Source: Acidobacteriota bacterium (GTDB lineage: Bacteria; Acidobacteriota; Terriglobia; Acidoferrales; UBA7541). Taken from it: a stretch of DNA of 5,757 bases. Of this stretch, positions 1-5,757 are shown in pieces. Under the pieces are notes generated by a model, which saw nothing but the letters and a program-made list of their open reading frames with translations, was not told where the DNA came from and made no database searches. The position numbers were made by a program, and so were the translations under genes. The stretch lies in the NCBI GenBank assembly GCA_019239815.1, contig JAFAZL010000435.1, positions 1 through 5,757 on the forward strand. The letters are read 5' to 3'. Position 1 is the stretch's first letter; every line of letters begins with the position of its first letter.

Positions 1-104
1 CCGTCGAAGTCGAATCGCTTCACGAGCACTGGCGAAACACTCACCGATTTTCGGACTACAAGCGTTTCTCAGTCGACACGAAGGAGCAAGCCCAAAAGCA
101 ATGA
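1..104 (+). CDS. C-terminal end of an unidentified upstream gene (partial)
   Basis: The third forward frame is open from the window edge and ends in TGA at 102-104, giving about 33 residues that finish in FSDYKRFSVDTKEQAQKQ. The stop overlaps the ATG of the next gene (101-103), the ATGA arrangement typical of translationally coupled genes, which is the main support for calling this coding. The tail is charged and has no membrane segment or CxxCH heme motif. The 'sdYkrFsV' ending faintly recalls the last strand of LolA-like outer-membrane lipoprotein-sorting proteins, but this is too weak to name a product. The rest of the gene lies outside the window. As first member of the visible operon it could be a partner of the redox genes that follow. 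Confidence 0.55.
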   Translation, partial: VEVESLHEHWRNTHRFSDYKRFSVDTKEQAQKQ

Positions 105-1045
105 GCGCAAACGTCAGCTTTCCACGGGTAGTTGCAGCCGAAGCGAACGGCGAGCGAGTGCACAGGATCACTCTTACTGTCGGCTATGTCGTAACTGGCC
201 TGCTCTTACTCGCCTTACTGATTTACGGCGCGGATTATTACTGGGTTTCCGCTGCACACCGCGCACTCTCTCCCAAGCACGCCCTGTTAAAGCCTAGCGG
301 GACGATTGGACTGCGTCTCGGCATGATTGGCTTTTTGATGTTTCTGCTGATCTACATTTATCCATTGCGGAAACGCTGGGCTTGGCTCGGCCGGCAGGGC
401 AGCTCACGTCATTGGCTCGATTTTCACGTATTGCTCGGCCTCACGGCGCCTGTCGTCGTAACTTTTCATTCTTCCTTCAAGTTCAGCGGAATCGCCGGGG
501 TGGCGTACTGGATCATGATCATTGTTTCTCTAAGCGGCGTGGTGGGGCGCTACATCTACGCGCAGATTCCGCGCAGCCTGAATTCGGCGGAACTTTCTCT
601 CCGAGAAGCGCAAGACCAGAGCGCGTCTTTCGCCGCGCAACTCCGCACTCTTGGAATCCTGAGCGAGCGCGACGTCCTGAAACTTGTCAGCCTGCCGGAC
701 ATAAAGCAGGCGGAACAGATGTCTGTCCTGGTGGCGCTCTTCAAGATGATGGCGTTCGATCTTATGTTTCCGCTTCGCGCCTGGCGCTTGCGTCAGAGGA
801 TGATCTGGTCTCACAGCCGCAGCGTTTTTGCGCTAGTGGGATTCCGGCGCAGCGAGAATATGGCTCTGGAACGCGCGATCGAACTGGCAAAGCAGCAAAG
901 CGTTATCTCGAAGAAGATTTTGTTTTTGTCGAAATCGCACCGGATGTTTCAGCTCTGGCACGTCATTCATCGGCCGTTTAGTTACTCTTTTGCGTTGCTT
1001 GCGTCGATTCACGTGATTTTGATGCTGCTGCTCGGCTACTACTAA
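101..1045 (+). CDS. Bis-heme b membrane protein, ferric reductase/NOX-like transmembrane core without flavin domain
   Basis: A 314-residue inner-membrane protein that probably carries electrons across the membrane through two b hemes. Five hydrophobic segments are visible, at about 25-43, 69-87, 107-124, 131-149 and 291-312. The third contains H109 and H123, the fifth H290 and H304; both pairs are H-x13-H, the spacing used by ferric reductases and NADPH oxidases in the same two helices. Arg/Lys-rich stretches at 88-103 and 226-250 put those loops in the cytoplasm, so H109/H290 would hold the inner heme and H123/H304 the outer one. Oddities are a cytoplasmic loop of about 140 residues between helices 4 and 5 (short in NOX/FRE proteins) and no FAD/NAD domain after helix 5. 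That role would fall to the flavoprotein encoded 46 nt downstream. The ATG overlaps the upstream stop; an AAGGAG at 81-86 is rather far away (14 nt), so coupling may matter. Heme ligation is inferred from spacing only; other b-type cytochrome folds are possible. Confidence 0.85.
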   Translation: MSANVSFPRVVAAEANGERVHRITLTVGYVVTGLLLLALLIYGADYYWVSAAHRALSPKHALLKPSGTIGLRLGMIGFLMFLLIYIYPLRKRWAWLGRQGSSRHWLDFHVLLGLTAPVVVTFHSSFKFSGIAGVAYWIMIIVSLSGVVGRYIYAQIPRSLNSAELSLREAQDQSASFAAQLRTLGILSERDVLKLVSLPDIKQAEQMSVLVALFKMMAFDLMFPLRAWRLRQRMIWSHSRSVFALVGFRRSENMALERAIELAKQQSVISKKILFLSKSHRMFQLWHVIHRPFSYSFALLASIHVILMLLLGYY

Positions 1046-1091
1046 ATCCACTGACTTGGGGAGCGATGTGCGATTGAGCGGAGAAAACTGA

Positions 1092-2480
1092 ATGTCCGAA
1101 ACGCTCCAAAACATTTTGTTCTACGCTTTCTGTGCGATCGTTATCGCCGTGCCGATGTGGCTGTATCAACGGCGCCTAAAAAAAAGAGAAGCGCGCGCGA
1201 GAGAGTCTGAAGCCAAAGGCAAGCTGTACTCTGAAGGACCCAGGGCACAGCACCCGCACATTGACGTGAGCAACTGCATCGGTTGCGCAATTTGCACGCA
1301 TGTCTGTCCCGAAGGCGACGTGCTCGCCATGATCGGAGGCAAGGCGGCTATCGTCAACGGTTACAAATGCATCGGCCACAGCCTTTGCGCTGAAGCCTGC
1401 CCGGTCGGTGCGATCACTATGACGATGGCGAGCGCCAGCATCGGGGCCGACATGCCTACCCTGACGCCAGAGTATGAAACGAACATACCGAACTTGTTTA
1501 TCGTCGGCGAACTCGGCGGCTTGGCTTTGATCAAGAATGCTGTGACTCAAGGTCGTGATTGTATCGACGTCATTACGCGAAGGCTGGCGTCTCTCGATCC
1601 TGCAAGGCGAGAGCCGAATACTTACGACGTGATGGTCGTCGGAGCAGGGCCAGCCGGGATCAGCGCATCACTGCGGGCGATCGAAAACAAGCTCAACTAT
1701 GTGACGGTAGAGCAGGAGTCGGTCGGTGGAACAGTCTCGAAATATCCGCGGCAAAAGCTGGTCATGACGAGCCCGGTCGATTTTCCAATGCACGGAAAGT
1801 TTAAGAAACTGGAATTGAGCAAAGAAGACCTGCTGAATTTCTGGAATAGTCTGATGCACAGTGCAGATTTCAAGGTTCGTCTCGGAGAAAAGTTGGAGGA
1901 TCTCCGCAGAGATGAAGGCGGGATCTTCACGATTGTGACTTCCAAGGGACAATATCGATCGCATGCAGTTGTGCTTGGATTAGGTCGGAGCGGCACCCCG
2001 AGAAAGCTTGGCGTCAAGGGCGAAGAACTGCCCAAGGTTATGTATCGCTTGATTGAAGCGGATCATTACATCAATAAAAAAATTCTCGTGGTCGGCGGTG
2101 GCGACAGCGCCGTCGAAGCGGCTCTTGGTCTAGCTCAGCAGAAGGGCAACGCGGTAACGCTTTCCTATCGACAGGACCGGTTCAGCCGAATCAAAGAGCG
2201 AAACGCGCAGCGCATCGAAGCCGACCTGCGAAAAGGAAAATTGACGGTGTTGTTCAATTCCAATCCACTGGAATTCAAAGAGAAGAGCGTGGTCCTCGAA
2301 GTTTGCGGTCAAACTCGCGAGATCCCGAATGATTTCGTCTGGGTTTTCGCGGGAGGAACGCCGCCAAGCGCCTTCTTGCAGAAAATCGGAGTCGGACTTG
2401 GAGCACGGGACATGACTGTCGACGCAGCCAACGCAGCCCGGGAAGCGAACTCAGACCGAAAACAATTGGTGGAAGTATAG
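1092..2480 (+). CDS. Membrane-anchored NAD(P)H:FAD oxidoreductase with two ferredoxin-type Fe-S clusters
   Basis: A 462-residue protein predicted to pass electrons from NAD(P)H through FAD to iron-sulphur clusters. Residues 6-25 form one membrane helix, followed by a basic patch (RRLKKREARAR) that keeps the rest in the cytoplasm. The ferredoxin part has C62-C65-C68-C72-Pro and then C93-H96-C99-C103-Pro, with His in place of the usual second Cys. Residues 131-143 (NIPNLFIVGELGG) resemble the FAD-binding segment that normally ends thioredoxin-reductase-like proteins. Next come the FAD Rossmann motif GAGPAG (184-189), GGTVSKYPR (212-220) and the NAD(P) motif GGGDSA (335-340). The chain ends soon after a VFAGGTPPSAFL segment (418-429). 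No CxxC lies in the NAD(P) domain, so it is unlikely to be a disulphide reductase. GGAG at 1080-1083 lies 8 nt before the ATG. The neighbouring bis-heme membrane protein is the obvious electron acceptor. Family assignment (pyridine nucleotide oxidoreductase plus 4Fe-4S dicluster) is firm; acceptor and NADH/NADPH preference are inferred. Confidence 0.92.
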   Translation: MSETLQNILFYAFCAIVIAVPMWLYQRRLKKREARARESEAKGKLYSEGPRAQHPHIDVSNCIGCAICTHVCPEGDVLAMIGGKAAIVNGYKCIGHSLCAEACPVGAITMTMASASIGADMPTLTPEYETNIPNLFIVGELGGLALIKNAVTQGRDCIDVITRRLASLDPARREPNTYDVMVVGAGPAGISASLRAIENKLNYVTVEQESVGGTVSKYPRQKLVMTSPVDFPMHGKFKKLELSKEDLLNFWNSLMHSADFKVRLGEKLEDLRRDEGGIFTIVTSKGQYRSHAVVLGLGRSGTPRKLGVKGEELPKVMYRLIEADHYINKKILVVGGGDSAVEAALGLAQQKGNAVTLSYRQDRFSRIKERNAQRIEADLRKGKLTVLFNSNPLEFKEKSVVLEVCGQTREIPNDFVWVFAGGTPPSAFLQKIGVGLGARDMTVDAANAAREANSDRKQLVEV

Positions 2481-2525
2481 ACGGAGCTGGACGGGACTTG
2501 TCAGACAAATTGACACCGAAGAGAA

Positions 2526-2530
2526 AGAGG
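2526..2530 (+). promoter_or_regulatory. Ribosome binding site for the lipoprotein gene
   Basis: AGAGG sits 9 nt before the ATG at 2540. This supports that ATG over the in-frame TTG at 2498, which would add 14 charged residues (SDKLTPKRKRQVE) in front of a signal peptide that is complete without them. Confidence 0.5.
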
Positions 2531-2539
2531 CAAGTGGAG

Positions 2540-3064
2540 ATGAAACTCATTGCTGGAATGGCCGGGTTCGCTTTCCTCATCGCATTCACGGCCGGGTGCA
2601 AGCAGCAGGTGGGCACGATAGGAGCAAACGCATCGACCCCGGCGAATGCTACGCCGTCCGACGCCATTCGCACCGCGATCGACGCGCACCTCGCGCACAA
2701 CGGAAATTTGCGGCGCGATTCCTTCAATACCGAAATCAAGCAATTGACTTTCGACGGTGACCACGCCCAGGCACAGGTCGAATTCCGCACAAAAAACGGA
2801 CCGGGCGCGATGCAACTGACCTACTCGCTCGAGAAGAGGAACGGTGCATGGGTCGTAGCCGAATCTACGCCGAACGGGAGTAACTTTTCCCATCCATCAG
2901 CTGGCATGCCTACTCAAAGTAGCGGCGCACCGTCCGCCGGGGACCCTTCGGTTTTCGACGCCCTGGACAGGCTGCACGATCACCCGAATGCCCGTGCTGC
3001 AAAGTTGCCACCCGGACACCCACCGATCAATCCGAATGGCAGCACACCTAGCCAACAACCGTGA
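2540..3064 (+). CDS. Small secreted lipoprotein with a C-terminal LPPGHPPI motif, function unknown
   Basis: A 174-residue predicted lipoprotein. The first 19 residues form a signal peptide with a hydrophobic core (AGMAGFAFLIAF) and the lipobox-like TAGC, so C20 would be acylated; K21 at +2 favours export to the outer membrane under the E. coli rule. Residues 41-110 look like one small alpha/beta domain: a helix (DAIRTAIDAHLAHNG), then strands ending in YSLEKRNGAWVVAES. This resembles NTF2-like or DUF4878-type lipoprotein domains, but only by general pattern. From 111 on the chain is rich in Pro, Ser and Gly, with a short helix-like piece at 138-148 and LPPGHPPI at 156-163 before a polar end. 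The gene starts 59 nt after the flavoprotein on the same strand and is probably cotranscribed, suggesting an extracytoplasmic accessory to the redox pair. The start is chosen by ribosome binding site and signal peptide; a longer product from TTG at 2498 is less likely. No cysteine other than C20 is present. Confidence 0.8.
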   Translation: MKLIAGMAGFAFLIAFTAGCKQQVGTIGANASTPANATPSDAIRTAIDAHLAHNGNLRRDSFNTEIKQLTFDGDHAQAQVEFRTKNGPGAMQLTYSLEKRNGAWVVAESTPNGSNFSHPSAGMPTQSSGAPSAGDPSVFDALDRLHDHPNARAAKLPPGHPPINPNGSTPSQQP

Positions 3065-3127
3065 GCGACAAAGCCTTATTCGGCGCTCTCTGTGTGCGCA
3101 TAAACCTCGCGACTTCTTAAACTTAAA

Positions 3128-3171
3128 TGGCGCGCCCGGATGGGTTCGAACTCCCGACCTATGGTTCGTAG
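3128..3171 (-). pseudogene. 3' half of a tRNA-Arg(ACG), remnant
   Basis: Read on the minus strand, this is an anticodon loop CTACGAA with anticodon ACG, then CCATA (3' side of the anticodon stem), a 4-nt variable region GGTC, a T-arm with loop TTCGAAC, a 7-nt acceptor strand CGGGCGC, discriminator G and an encoded CCA. The spacing from T-loop to CCA is exactly that of a tRNA (5+7+1+3). The T-stem has two mismatches (G-A and A-C). No D-arm or 5' acceptor strand (GCGCCCG expected) follows on the 5' side, and the sequence before the loop does not pair with CCATA. So this is a non-functional fragment starting at the anticodon loop, a usual breakpoint for tyrosine-recombinase attachment sites. Degenerate decay of a whole tRNA is the alternative. 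Confidence 0.65.
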
Positions 3172-3296
3172 ACCAGGGCATGGTTCTGTACGTTCTTGAA
3201 AAGCCGTTAGTTGCTTCTGTCGAATGAAACTCGTCCGGCCATCAGTACAGGATTTGGGCTAGGTGAAGTACCAGCCCCAACCTTGCCGGGACTGCT

Positions 3297-3317
3297 GGTT
3301 AAGGGCCGTCCTTAACC
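3297..3317. repeat. Perfect 8-bp inverted repeat (hairpin or operator)
   Basis: GGTTAAGG (3297-3304) and CCTTAACC (3310-3317) are exact reverse complements separated by GCCGT, and a G-T pair could extend the stem to 9 bp with a 3-nt loop. No T-run follows on either strand, so it is not a standard terminator. It lies 120 nt before the glycosidase start and could be a regulator site or a leader hairpin. Confidence 0.5.
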
Positions 3318-3436
3318 TGTTCCTGCCGCCAGTTGTTCCGATCTCGCGTCGACCAGTAGATTGAGACTTAGAAGCGTGCCCCCAGCGGCTCCTCTGACAG
3401 CGACTGCGGTCAAAAACTCGGGATTCAACCATTTCG

Positions 3437-5341
3437 ATGCCAATAACCTTACGCCCCAAGGTCAACGGTTCCGCGACACTATCTGTGGCCATTATCTTCG
3501 CCCTTTCGATTCTATGTGGATGTGCCGCAGTCGTGACGCAGGATCCTTTATCGAGTGGCGGCGCGGCGAAGTCAGCTGTAATTTCGGTGACGATATCTCC
3601 CAATCCGGCATCGACAACGACAGGCGGGAAGATTCAATTTGCCGCAAACGTGCAGGGCGCAACCACCAACAAATCGGTTCAGTGGAAGGCTTCCTCTGGA
3701 AGTGTCGACTCGTCCGGGCTATATACCGCGAGTGCCTCTGTGGGAAATGCAACTGTGATCGCAACGAGCGTCAGCGATTCGACCAAGTCTGCCTCGGTTT
3801 CAATTTTGGTCACCGCGACGACCACGGGATCGCAGCCGCCGCCAACGGGCACAACCGCAGGCCCACCGATTATTAGCAGCTTGATCGCAACGCCCGCTCA
3901 GATTCAGGCAGGGCAAACCTCCCTAGTTGGTTGGACTGTTACTGGGGCAACGTCGCTAAGCCTCAGCGGAGTGGGAAGTGTCACTGGCTCGTCTTTTGGT
4001 GTCGATCCTTTGAAGACGACGACGTATACATTAACGGCCACGAGCGCGGCCGGCACCACATCAAAAAGCGTAACCGTGTCCGTGACCGCTGCGCCCTCAG
4101 TTCCTGCACCACCTATAACGCCTCCGCCGCCCGTATCGTCATCTACCGCTCAACCGGTTGAGATGGGAGTCGTGACGCACTTCGGTCAGGACCATGGAAA
4201 CGTGGAAGCCAACTTGAATCTGATCCAGGAAATGGGGGCGACTACGATTCGTGACGAGGTTTACTGGAAGCAAGTCGAACACTCAAAGGGCAGCTATGCG
4301 ATCCCATCGGTCGATGAAACCTGGGTAAATGCCGCCGTGGCGAAGGGTTTGAAGCCCCTGATAACCCTGGATTACGGCAATCCGCTCTACGACAACGGGG
4401 ATAAACCGACTTCGCCAGCCGCAATCGAGGCGTACGCAAACTACGCTGAGTTTGTGGCGACTCAGTTCAAAGGGCGCGTGACGATGTACGAAATTTGGAA
4501 CGAATGGGATCTCACGACGGGCAACACCACCAAGGGGACGCCGCAGTCCTATGTAAATCTCTTAAAGGTGGTTTATCCGAAACTGAAGGCTGTCGATCCG
4601 AATATCGAGGTGATCGGCGGAGGCATCAGCGCCGGCGCAATTCTCTCAACGTGGTTCACGCAGATGCTGGACGCGGGAGCGTTGAAATCGGCCGATGCCA
4701 TTTCGATTCACGAGTACATCTTTCACTCGACTGGAGCCAATCGTTCTCCAGAAACTTTGGTCGGCAAGTTGGCCGGTGTCGAGGCGACATTGAAGAGCCG
4801 AAACTCGAATCAGGATTATCCGCTCTATTTAACGGAGACGGGTTGGCCCACAAATACGGGAACGGCGGGAACCACTGAGCAAGAGGCTGGAGACTTCAAC
4901 GCTGAGACGGCACTACTGAGCTCGAGCGTGCCGGGCCTGAAAGGGATTTGGTGGTACGACTTTCAGGACGACGGTTCGGTGGCGAGTTCTACAGAGGACA
5001 ATTTTGGCTTGGTGCATGTGAATCTCAGTCCCAAGCCCGGTTTTTACGCTCTCATGGACGGGAAAAATTGGATGGCCGGTGCAAAGTTTAGCGCTCGAAT
5101 CTCCACGTCCGATCCAGCAGTGGATGGAGTCAAGTTCTTACTTCCGGACGGAAGAGAAGGGATAGCACTCTGGAGGATGGGTGCCGGCTCCAGCAGTGTG
5201 GAGGTGAGCGGCGGCGAGACGATGGATTCGATCAACTCATCGTCGACAGGCACAATTACGTTTCAAGTGAAAAGCCCCGTGATACAGGACCTGACCGAAT
5301 CGCCTGTCTGGTTTGTGGGAGTCGACCTGAAGGTGCAGTGA
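3437..5341 (+). CDS. Secreted lipoprotein glycoside hydrolase, clan GH-A (GH39/PslG-like or GH5-like), with two Ig-like domains
   Basis: A 634-residue predicted polysaccharide-cleaving lipoprotein. Residues 1-28 are a signal peptide with lipobox LCGC, so C29 would be acylated. Two Ig-like beta domains follow, at about 47-127 (ending in the SSGLYTASA and SVSILVTA strands) and 143-218. A Pro/Thr/Ser linker (219-240) precedes a TIM-barrel domain at about 241-540. WNEWD puts the acid/base at E356 after N355; YLTETGW puts the nucleophile at E467; the 110-residue gap, the conserved-looking H425 and the W505/W506 pair fit retaining clan GH-A enzymes. The opening VTHFGQDHG and the layout recall PslG, the GH39-like endoglycosidase of Pseudomonas exopolysaccharide, but family and substrate cannot be settled by eye. 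Residues 541-634 look like a small beta-sandwich ending in SPVWFVGVDLKVQ. No in-frame ATG/GTG/TTG lies between the upstream stop at 3395-3397 and this ATG; the ribosome site is weak. It appears to be a single-gene unit, probably acting at the cell surface. Confidence 0.9.
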   Translation: MPITLRPKVNGSATLSVAIIFALSILCGCAAVVTQDPLSSGGAAKSAVISVTISPNPASTTTGGKIQFAANVQGATTNKSVQWKASSGSVDSSGLYTASASVGNATVIATSVSDSTKSASVSILVTATTTGSQPPPTGTTAGPPIISSLIATPAQIQAGQTSLVGWTVTGATSLSLSGVGSVTGSSFGVDPLKTTTYTLTATSAAGTTSKSVTVSVTAAPSVPAPPITPPPPVSSSTAQPVEMGVVTHFGQDHGNVEANLNLIQEMGATTIRDEVYWKQVEHSKGSYAIPSVDETWVNAAVAKGLKPLITLDYGNPLYDNGDKPTSPAAIEAYANYAEFVATQFKGRVTMYEIWNEWDLTTGNTTKGTPQSYVNLLKVVYPKLKAVDPNIEVIGGGISAGAILSTWFTQMLDAGALKSADAISIHEYIFHSTGANRSPETLVGKLAGVEATLKSRNSNQDYPLYLTETGWPTNTGTAGTTEQEAGDFNAETALLSSSVPGLKGIWWYDFQDDGSVASSTEDNFGLVHVNLSPKPGFYALMDGKNWMAGAKFSARISTSDPAVDGVKFLLPDGREGIALWRMGAGSSSVEVSGGETMDSINSSSTGTITFQVKSPVIQDLTESPVWFVGVDLKVQ

Positions 5342-5383: not shown

Positions 5384-5757
5384 CTACATTTCCATCTTGC
5401 CGGTTGCAGGCATCAAATTCCATGCCGCCCAGAATGCATCCATTTCCGCGGGCGTGCCGAGTGAAACTCGAACATAGTTGGGCATCACGGTATTAAGTGG
5501 TCCAATCAAGATACTTTGTCCTTTGAGATGCTCTACAACTTCTTCAGCCGGTCGTCCCGGTTTGAGCATGATGAAGTTCGTGTGTGAGTCGAGTGCCCGA
5601 AGCATGTAGCCGTTGACGCGGTTGAGAAATTCCTGCCGGTCGTCCGCATTGCGTTTGATGACTAATTGCAGATATTCAGAATCGTCGAGCGCTGCCGAGG
5701 CAGCCCTTGCCGACACGATCGTAACGTCGGCATGTAGTCTCTCTCCTTCAAAACGCC
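5384..5757 (-). CDS. PLP-dependent aminotransferase class I/II, HisC-like, C-terminal part (cut by window end)
   Basis: The minus-strand frame is open from the window edge to TAG at 5384-5386, giving 124 C-terminal residues; the true start is outside. The visible part matches the small domain of fold-type I aminotransferases near histidinol-phosphate aminotransferase: a helix with VSARAASAALDD, then a helix with LVIKRNADDRQEFLNRV, the strand SHTNFIMLK, 'GQSILIGPL' and finally NYVRVSLGTPAEMDAF. The Arg in NYVRVSLGT is the position that binds the substrate carboxylate or phosphate group in this family. The PLP lysine is not in the window. A GTG at 5714-5716 should not be taken as the start, because the frame continues upstream with family-like sequence. 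The gene converges on the glycosidase gene with 42 nt between stops and no obvious terminator. Whether it serves histidine synthesis or another amino-group transfer cannot be told from this piece. Confidence 0.85.
   Translation of the reverse strand, partial: RFEGERLHADVTIVSARAASAALDDSEYLQLVIKRNADDRQEFLNRVNGYMLRALDSHTNFIMLKPGRPAEEVVEHLKGQSILIGPLNTVMPNYVRVSLGTPAEMDAFWAAWNLMPATGKMEM

Follow-up and report, generated by a model that had tools for sequence, protein, structure and literature searches.

A predicted diheme membrane protein and its iron-sulfur flavoprotein partner: a candidate NAD(P)H-fed inner-membrane electron wire in soil Acidobacteriota

We analysed a stretch of 5,757 nucleotides from an Acidobacteriota bacterium (contig JAFAZL010000435.1; hereafter the window) carrying two genes for what appears to be an undescribed inner-membrane electron wire in soil Acidobacteriota. 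The first encodes a membrane protein (B) and the second an iron-sulfur (Fe-S) flavoprotein (F); they lie on the same strand and are separated by a 46-base gap. Upstream, the stop codon of a third gene (C3) overlaps the start codon of B (ATGA at 101-104). The C3 tail in the window is 69% identical to the end of C3 from the related locus L003, and C3 occupies the same place in most relatives; no Pfam family scored over its cut-off in the two C3 proteins scanned. The initial annotation of the window had described B and F as a split NOX/FRE (ferric reductase-like) system passing electrons from NAD(P)H to an extracytoplasmic acceptor. At the level of sequence comparison the core of this inference is well supported but the NOX/FRE family label is not. 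The features concerned are as follows.

3..104, + strand: 3' end of the upstream gene C3, last 33 residues (from translation; in relatives C3 is a secreted protein of ~270 aa)
101..1045, + strand: B, membrane protein of 314 aa with five helices, a predicted diheme cytochrome b (family hydropathy, model, conservation)
425..427, + strand: codon of H109, predicted inner heme ligand, helix 3 (His in 82/84 homologues, gap in 2)
467..469, + strand: codon of H123, predicted outer heme ligand, helix 3 (His 83/84, gap 1)
968..970, + strand: codon of H290, predicted inner heme ligand, helix 5 (His 81/84, gap 3)
1010..1012, + strand: codon of H304, predicted outer heme ligand, helix 5 (His 81/84, gap 3)
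1092..2480, + strand: F, Fe-S flavoprotein of 462 aa with a membrane anchor, predicted to be an NAD(P)H dehydrogenase (Fer4 and Pyr_redox family matches in Pfam)
1110..1166, + strand: N-terminal membrane anchor of F, residues 7-25 (hydropathy)
1275..1307, + strand: first Fe-S motif of F, C62-x2-C65-x2-C68-x3-C72 (24/24 in alignment A5)
1368..1400, + strand: second Fe-S motif of F, C93-x2-H96-x2-C99-x3-C103-P, with His for one Cys (Cys 24/24; residue 96 His 23, Ile 1)
1455..1604, + strand: FAD-binding tail segment of F, residues 122-171, N-terminal of the FAD Rossmann domain (alignment to L069_1)
2094..2111, + strand: NAD(P)H-binding motif GGGDSA of F, residues 335-340 (invariant in the 24 rows of A5)

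Conserved histidines and topology of B

B contains exactly two H-x13-H pairs, H109/H123 and H290/H304, in the third and fifth helices, where the initial annotation had placed them. We rejected the pattern in a single sequence as proof of heme binding, since 809 of 20,000 shuffles of B also show two or more such pairs. The stronger evidence for the four histidines is their conservation. It was assessed in 84 homologues that differ from one another in their last 150 residues (de-duplicated from 115 open reading frame (ORF) matches), with 9-67% identity over B, the lowest values belonging to fragments and full-length proteins starting from 15%. A search for homologues that had lost H109, H123, H290 or H304, which the initial annotation had named as a possible refutation, returned none: each position holds histidine or a gap, with zero substitutions. 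The four rows short of the full set are incomplete pieces (L027_4, L054_1, L054_2 and L076_52); L054 has a frame broken by a stop, and the end of L076_52, lost to trimming, is intact in the untrimmed sequence. The remaining histidines vary. H287 (64 of the 84), H60 (51), H21 (44) and H104 (29) were considered as extra ligands and rejected for their variability, and H53, H238 and H280 are not invariant in a 71-row alignment (A3).

The AlphaFold model of B (mean predicted local distance difference test, pLDDT, 79.3) has long helices at residues 15-47, 68-89, 102-123, 130-154 and 254-310, and the four conserved histidines fall in the third and the last of these. In this model B does not extend beyond helix 5, in agreement with the earlier remark that it lacks a C-terminal FAD/NAD(P)H domain. 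A six-helix topology was rejected: the stretch 207-225 is hydrophobic in the window's B (1.76) and not across the family (mean 0.55). Family mean net charges are +5.0 and +6.5 for the loops at 87-104 and 226-285, against +1.3 and +1.1 for those at 44-67 and 124-129; therefore helices 3 and 5 are both predicted to run from inside to outside, in parallel, which bears out the orientation originally suggested.

In NOX/FRE enzymes, histidine pairs spaced 12-13 residues apart lie in helices 3 and 5, and electrons pass from NAD(P)H to the outside. B has the same arrangement, two pairs with this spacing in the same two parallel helices, so that two stacked hemes would be expected. It differs in having five predicted helices and in staying under the Pfam cut-off. 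The window's B is not listed against PF01794 (Ferric_reduct) at E<=1; matches among relatives are weak (18/21 of alignment A2, best E 0.0021; 6/15 of A7, best E 0.0004), and of the 10 relatives for which scores were printed 6 match, the best with 18.4 bits against a gathering score of 28. The FNR-fold FAD/NAD(P)H domain that ends NOX/FRE proteins is absent; the flavin module of the window is instead a separate gene, F, of Pyr_redox type, with a thioredoxin-reductase/YpdA-like fold, circularly permuted and equipped with Fe-S sites. A further difference is that the electrons of B appear to go to cytochromes c. The NOX/FRE comparison therefore holds for the histidine spacing in helices 3 and 5 and fails for the Ferric_reduct match and the flavin fold: B would work like these enzymes, yet its scores do not make it a member. 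In B no Pfam or NCBIfam family scored over its cut-off, and sequence, profile, Foldseek and VIA-align searches of the PDB returned no match or unrelated helical proteins, which does not imply a new fold.

F and the exchange of input modules beside B

Pfam and hydropathy confirm that the gene next to B supplies FAD, NAD(P)H and Fe-S sites behind a membrane helix of its own: F consists of an N-terminal helix (7-25), a Fer4 pair (~55-110) and a Pyr_redox_2 domain (178-439). As to the Fe-S sites, two of ferredoxin type are present, the second being one cysteine short with H96 in its place. Seven of the cysteines are present in all 24 aligned proteins, and at the eighth position 23 have His and 1 has Ile. 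Because His replaces one Cys in 23 of the 24, the second cluster is probably, to judge from sequence, a His-ligated [4Fe-4S] or a [3Fe-4S] cluster. F is circularly permuted with respect to L069_1, an unpermuted relative: F176-434 aligns to residues 2-258 of L069_1 and F 122-171 to residues 269-316, the part that follows the NAD(P)H domain of that relative. The ferredoxin therefore adjoins the FAD-binding tail in F. The same permuted order is seen in a fusion protein, L061_22. Homologues of F of ~610 aa (P0138, P0143, P0151, P0169 and P0218) end, to judge by eye, in a duplicate of the NAD(P)H-binding domain; F of the window lacks this duplicate.

In the PDB F matches YpdA (7a7b, E 3.6e-26), and the FAD and NAD(P)H domains resemble those of YpdA and thioredoxin reductases. 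F differs from them by its membrane anchor, its two ferredoxin sites and its permuted FAD domain, and scores below both family cut-offs (163.1 bits for the YpdA model TIGR04018, cut-off 339.9; 68.9 bits for TIGR01292, cut-off 343.45). By analogy with YpdA, NADPH rather than NADH is the likely donor.

The pairing of B with F was surveyed in 396 genomes of the phylum to which G001 belongs, the Terriglobia metagenome-assembled genome that carries L003. B was matched in 56 genomes at E<=1e-3 and in 41 at E<=1e-46, and F in 43 at E<=1e-70 and in 30 at E<=1e-110. All 30 genomes with a strong F match lie inside the 41 with a strong B match (Fisher p 3e-36, uncorrected for kinship). In the 11 B genomes without F, another protein, an FNR-type FAD/NAD and plant-type [2Fe-2S] reductase (domain make-up from Pfam on 3 of the 11), adjoins B on the same strand at a distance of 0-746 bases, as a gene separate from B. 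Three of its four cluster cysteines are invariant and the fourth nearly so (10 proteins aligned). A profile built from ten of these proteins matched exactly 11 genomes at E<=1e-150, the next best match being at 1.1e-83; because ten of the eleven genomes built the profile, the score gap is informative and the membership is not. With 30 genomes holding F and 11 the FNR-type protein, 41 of 41 B genomes therefore hold one of the two and none holds both, at cut-offs (1e-46, 1e-110 and 1e-150) that were chosen after the score lists were seen. The F profile was likewise built in part from genomes that were then counted.

Gene neighbourhoods were compared in 82 B loci (de-duplicated on the last 90 residues), which were divided, also after inspection of the scores, into 35 close, 29 middle and 18 distant loci; a single scan of genome contigs gave 27 loci, all titled Acidobacteriota. 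Counts of loci and of genomes share ancestry. F-type ORFs (profile E<1e-15 plus a C-x2-C-x2-C-x3-C motif, a filter that includes unpermuted relatives) occur in the stretch around B in 34/35 close, 14/29 middle and 9/18 distant loci. Some distant loci have as input a thioredoxin reductase (TrxR)-like protein with cyclic-nucleotide-binding (cNMP) and Fe-S domains. A NuoEF-like protein and a cNMP/Fe-S protein adjoin B in L073 (Pfam) and L074 (by similarity), and in L061 (Pfam) and L062 (by similarity) a cNMP-Fer4-B fusion adjoins a cytochrome-Fer4-FAD fusion. Three kinds of reductase, permuted TrxR-like, FNR-like and NuoEF-like, are hence found beside the same four-histidine core. The proposal that Fe-S clusters lie between flavin and heme gains independent support from the flavin and Fe-S reductase that adjoins B in the 11 of 41 genomes without F, and further support from L061 and L062, where B carries fused Fe-S domains.

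Distant loci show additional variation. In L064, L066-L070, L061 and L062 cNMP-binding, Fe-S, FHA, and decaheme or octaheme cytochrome domains are joined (FHA was recognised by Pfam in L061 and by eye in L069), suggesting regulated versions. L071 and L077 combine short relatives of B with a 7-heme cytochrome and an FNR-like protein with a signal-like start, and possibly represent a different system.

Protein searches, in which the best 120 matches were listed out of 7997-8000 scored candidates, indicate the taxonomic range. Among the 120 matches listed in one search, the three organism-named rows were two Candidatus Acidiferrum and one Acidoferrales. A middle-tier B profile matched at least 1207 proteins (7997 candidates scored), and nine of its 120 listed matches were organism-named, 6 Acidobacteriota and 3 Gemmatimonadales.

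Cytochrome clusters in relatives and the proposed electron path

In close relatives the usual gene order is a 23-heme cytochrome c, a second cytochrome with 18-51 CxxCH motifs, an outer-membrane barrel, C3, B and F. The initial annotation had proposed a two-subunit pathway; the pairing of B with F is strong, and in relatives the pair is part of this larger cluster. An ORF with at least 6 CxxCH lies in the stretch around B in 28/35 close, 25/29 middle and 17/18 distant loci, or in 22/22, 16/17 and 14/14 when only loci with full flanks are counted. An ORF with exactly 23 CxxCH is present in 16/35 close loci, and many of the rest are cut short by the end of the stretch or contig. Because ORFs were called mechanically, some CxxCH totals merge frames of neighbouring genes and others are cut at the end of the stretch. 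One cluster cytochrome has 23 CxxCH in many genomes (L005, L007, L012, L019, L100-L103, L105, L106 and others), and the other varies from 18 to 51, apparently by repeats of one unit. In L003 the second cytochrome has Cytochrome_C7 and MtrC/MtrF-like domains (Pfam).

The barrel profile matched in 32/35 close, 11/29 middle and 0/18 distant loci, and the gene is present in 21 of the 22 close loci with full flanks. The AlphaFold model of the last 410 residues of the L001 protein (pLDDT 78.7) has two short helices beside 22 strands. Outer-membrane barrels head its Foldseek matches, with E down to 9.6e-10 and TM-scores of only 0.26-0.45, and a barrel fold is predicted from this model. The combination of barrel and multiheme cytochromes in one cluster, typical of porin-cytochrome systems, is found in relatives; of that cluster the window holds, beside B and F, the C3 tail only.

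With NAD(P)H flavin/Fe-S modules that replace one another at its input and cytochromes c at its output, B would be the wire between them; because the genes of relatives adjoin many-heme cytochromes and a barrel, B may pass electrons from NAD(P)H to the cell exterior. F, whose domains would lie in the cytoplasm behind a single anchoring helix, would oxidise NAD(P)H at FAD. Electrons would cross its Fe-S clusters one by one and reach the inner of the two b hemes of B (H109/H290). From there they would move to the outer heme b (H123/H304) and on to multiheme cytochromes c of the periplasm and outer membrane, whose genes share the cluster in relatives, and the barrel would provide the passage to an extracellular acceptor. 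Such an entry to the conduit would have no need of quinone. We consider it probable that B and F form an NAD(P)H-fed inner-membrane entry to an extracellular electron transfer conduit with this full chain, and the window's own genome is expected to carry the cytochrome and barrel genes as well. The more general claim, that this b-type diheme family is a quinone-free gateway from NAD(P)H to giant multiheme conduits in Acidobacteriota with a modular input of at least three unrelated reductases, is one towards which we lean slightly.

Several observations weigh against the proposed chain. The window itself has no cytochrome or barrel gene, both being taken from relatives, and B has no solved relative or convincing fold match in the PDB. 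L110 is without a cytochrome despite full flanks, and L020 has one cytochrome only and no barrel. Twelve genomes contain 12-28 PF14522 stretches each; because these genomes are rich in other cytochromes, a cytochrome neighbour is weaker evidence than it would be in a cytochrome-poor genome. Among the 18 distant loci, L065 and L078 have a cytochrome and no recognised input, L072, L075 and L076 hold only a cNMP/Fe-S protein with no F by our filter, and L071 and L077 hold a weaker FNR-like gene. F lies on the strand opposite B in L001, L009-L011, L015 and L053; it is found only on another contig in 4 of the 30 genomes (G009, G188, G234 and G322), and in G021 and G242 the best F match is on another contig with a cut piece of F near B.

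The separation of F from B in several genomes is also what would be expected if B were a quinone-linked cytochrome b, either a quinol oxidase or a quinone reductase, with F feeding or draining the quinone pool or working elsewhere. A diheme b protein beside multiheme cytochromes fits the pattern of CbcL and ImcH, and in passages of PMC6295460, PMC8805035 and PMC12307469 the inner-membrane entry proteins CymA, CbcL/MtoC/MtrH and ImcH are described as quinol-linked. However, unrelated flavin modules, all with Fe-S domains, swap beside B, and Fe-S domains are fused directly to B in L061 and L062; we regard a quinone-linked B as unlikely.

Outward electron flow fed by NAD(P)H would consume membrane potential instead of building it. 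This cost would be easier to understand if the pair, with its YpdA-like F that resembles disulfide reductases, belonged not to extracellular electron transfer but to a periplasmic reductase of assimilatory or protective function, for ferric iron uptake or for thiol or methionine repair, with the cytochromes only as an electron store. The barrel in 21/22 full-flank close loci and the cytochromes with 18-51 CxxCH nevertheless point to the outer membrane, and such a role seems to us distinctly unlikely.

As for the direction of the proposed chain, the potential of NAD(P)+ is very low and the membrane potential works against inward electron flow; on these bioenergetic grounds the chain would run outward. 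The same parts could serve an inward run, in which electrons from an outside donor (Fe(II), humics or partner cells) enter at the cytochromes, pass B and yield NAD(P)H at F, and multiheme conduits are held to be bidirectional in iron oxidisers (passages of PMC6295460 and PMC3669403). No energy-coupling subunit was noticed among the neighbours looked at, of which some are unannotated, and an inward run is in our estimate highly improbable.

Relation to known conduits and remaining features of the window

The clusters of relatives resemble porin-cytochrome conduits (MtrCAB, Geobacter PCC) in that an outer-membrane barrel of ~20 strands adjoins multiheme cytochromes, and differ in their 23-heme and 18-51-heme cytochromes and in the entry by NAD(P)H. 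B shares with ImcH, CbcL and CymA a position linking the inner membrane to periplasmic multiheme cytochromes, and CbcL likewise has a membrane half, of six helices, as described in part of PMC6295460. Those proteins are quinol-linked and have c hemes, whereas no CxxCH occurs in the translation of B or in the listed B ORFs of relatives, and B pairs with an NAD(P)H flavoprotein.

Porin-cytochrome clusters are known in Acidobacteriota, as stated in passages of PMC7399161 and PMC13264449, and a passage of PMC8805035 reports no inner-membrane quinone oxidoreductase near the MtrCAB clusters of Acidobacteriia. Nearest to the present case are 11 clusters in PMC13264449 (group 1 of its PCC), whose relevant section gives a decaheme gene of 4-5 kb, a porin of ~20 strands and, in 7 of the 11, a ferredoxin-NADP reductase nearby; a flavin reductase gene close by is a feature shared with the clusters described here. 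That section names no B-like membrane partner for the reductase; bc1-type petB/petC, ImcH or NapC/NirT-like proteins are named there in other groups. To judge from this section, these reductase clusters may overlap the FNR variant beside B. No description of a B-like protein was found in the literature searched, which included few subscription papers and no preprints.

There is a real chance that, in the B/F gateway, extracellular electron transfer has a new class of entry gate. If so, a common soil phylum would possess a second kind of entry, fed by NAD(P)H, and with it a means of electron disposal that costs membrane potential instead of making it. A single B core with swapped reductases would be a ready test set.

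In the rest of the window, promoters and terminators (both in a scan of 1-3600), tRNA genes and Rfam RNAs were at chance level or absent; positions 3120-3190 look by eye like the end of a tRNA gene, in which ARAGORN and Rfam find nothing. Positions 3437-5341 encode a lipoprotein-like protein of 634 aa with a glycoside hydrolase (GH) domain, for which GH5 Cellulase scores over its cut-off and GH39 just under. The C-terminal part of a HisC-like aminotransferase is encoded at 5384-5755 on the - strand.

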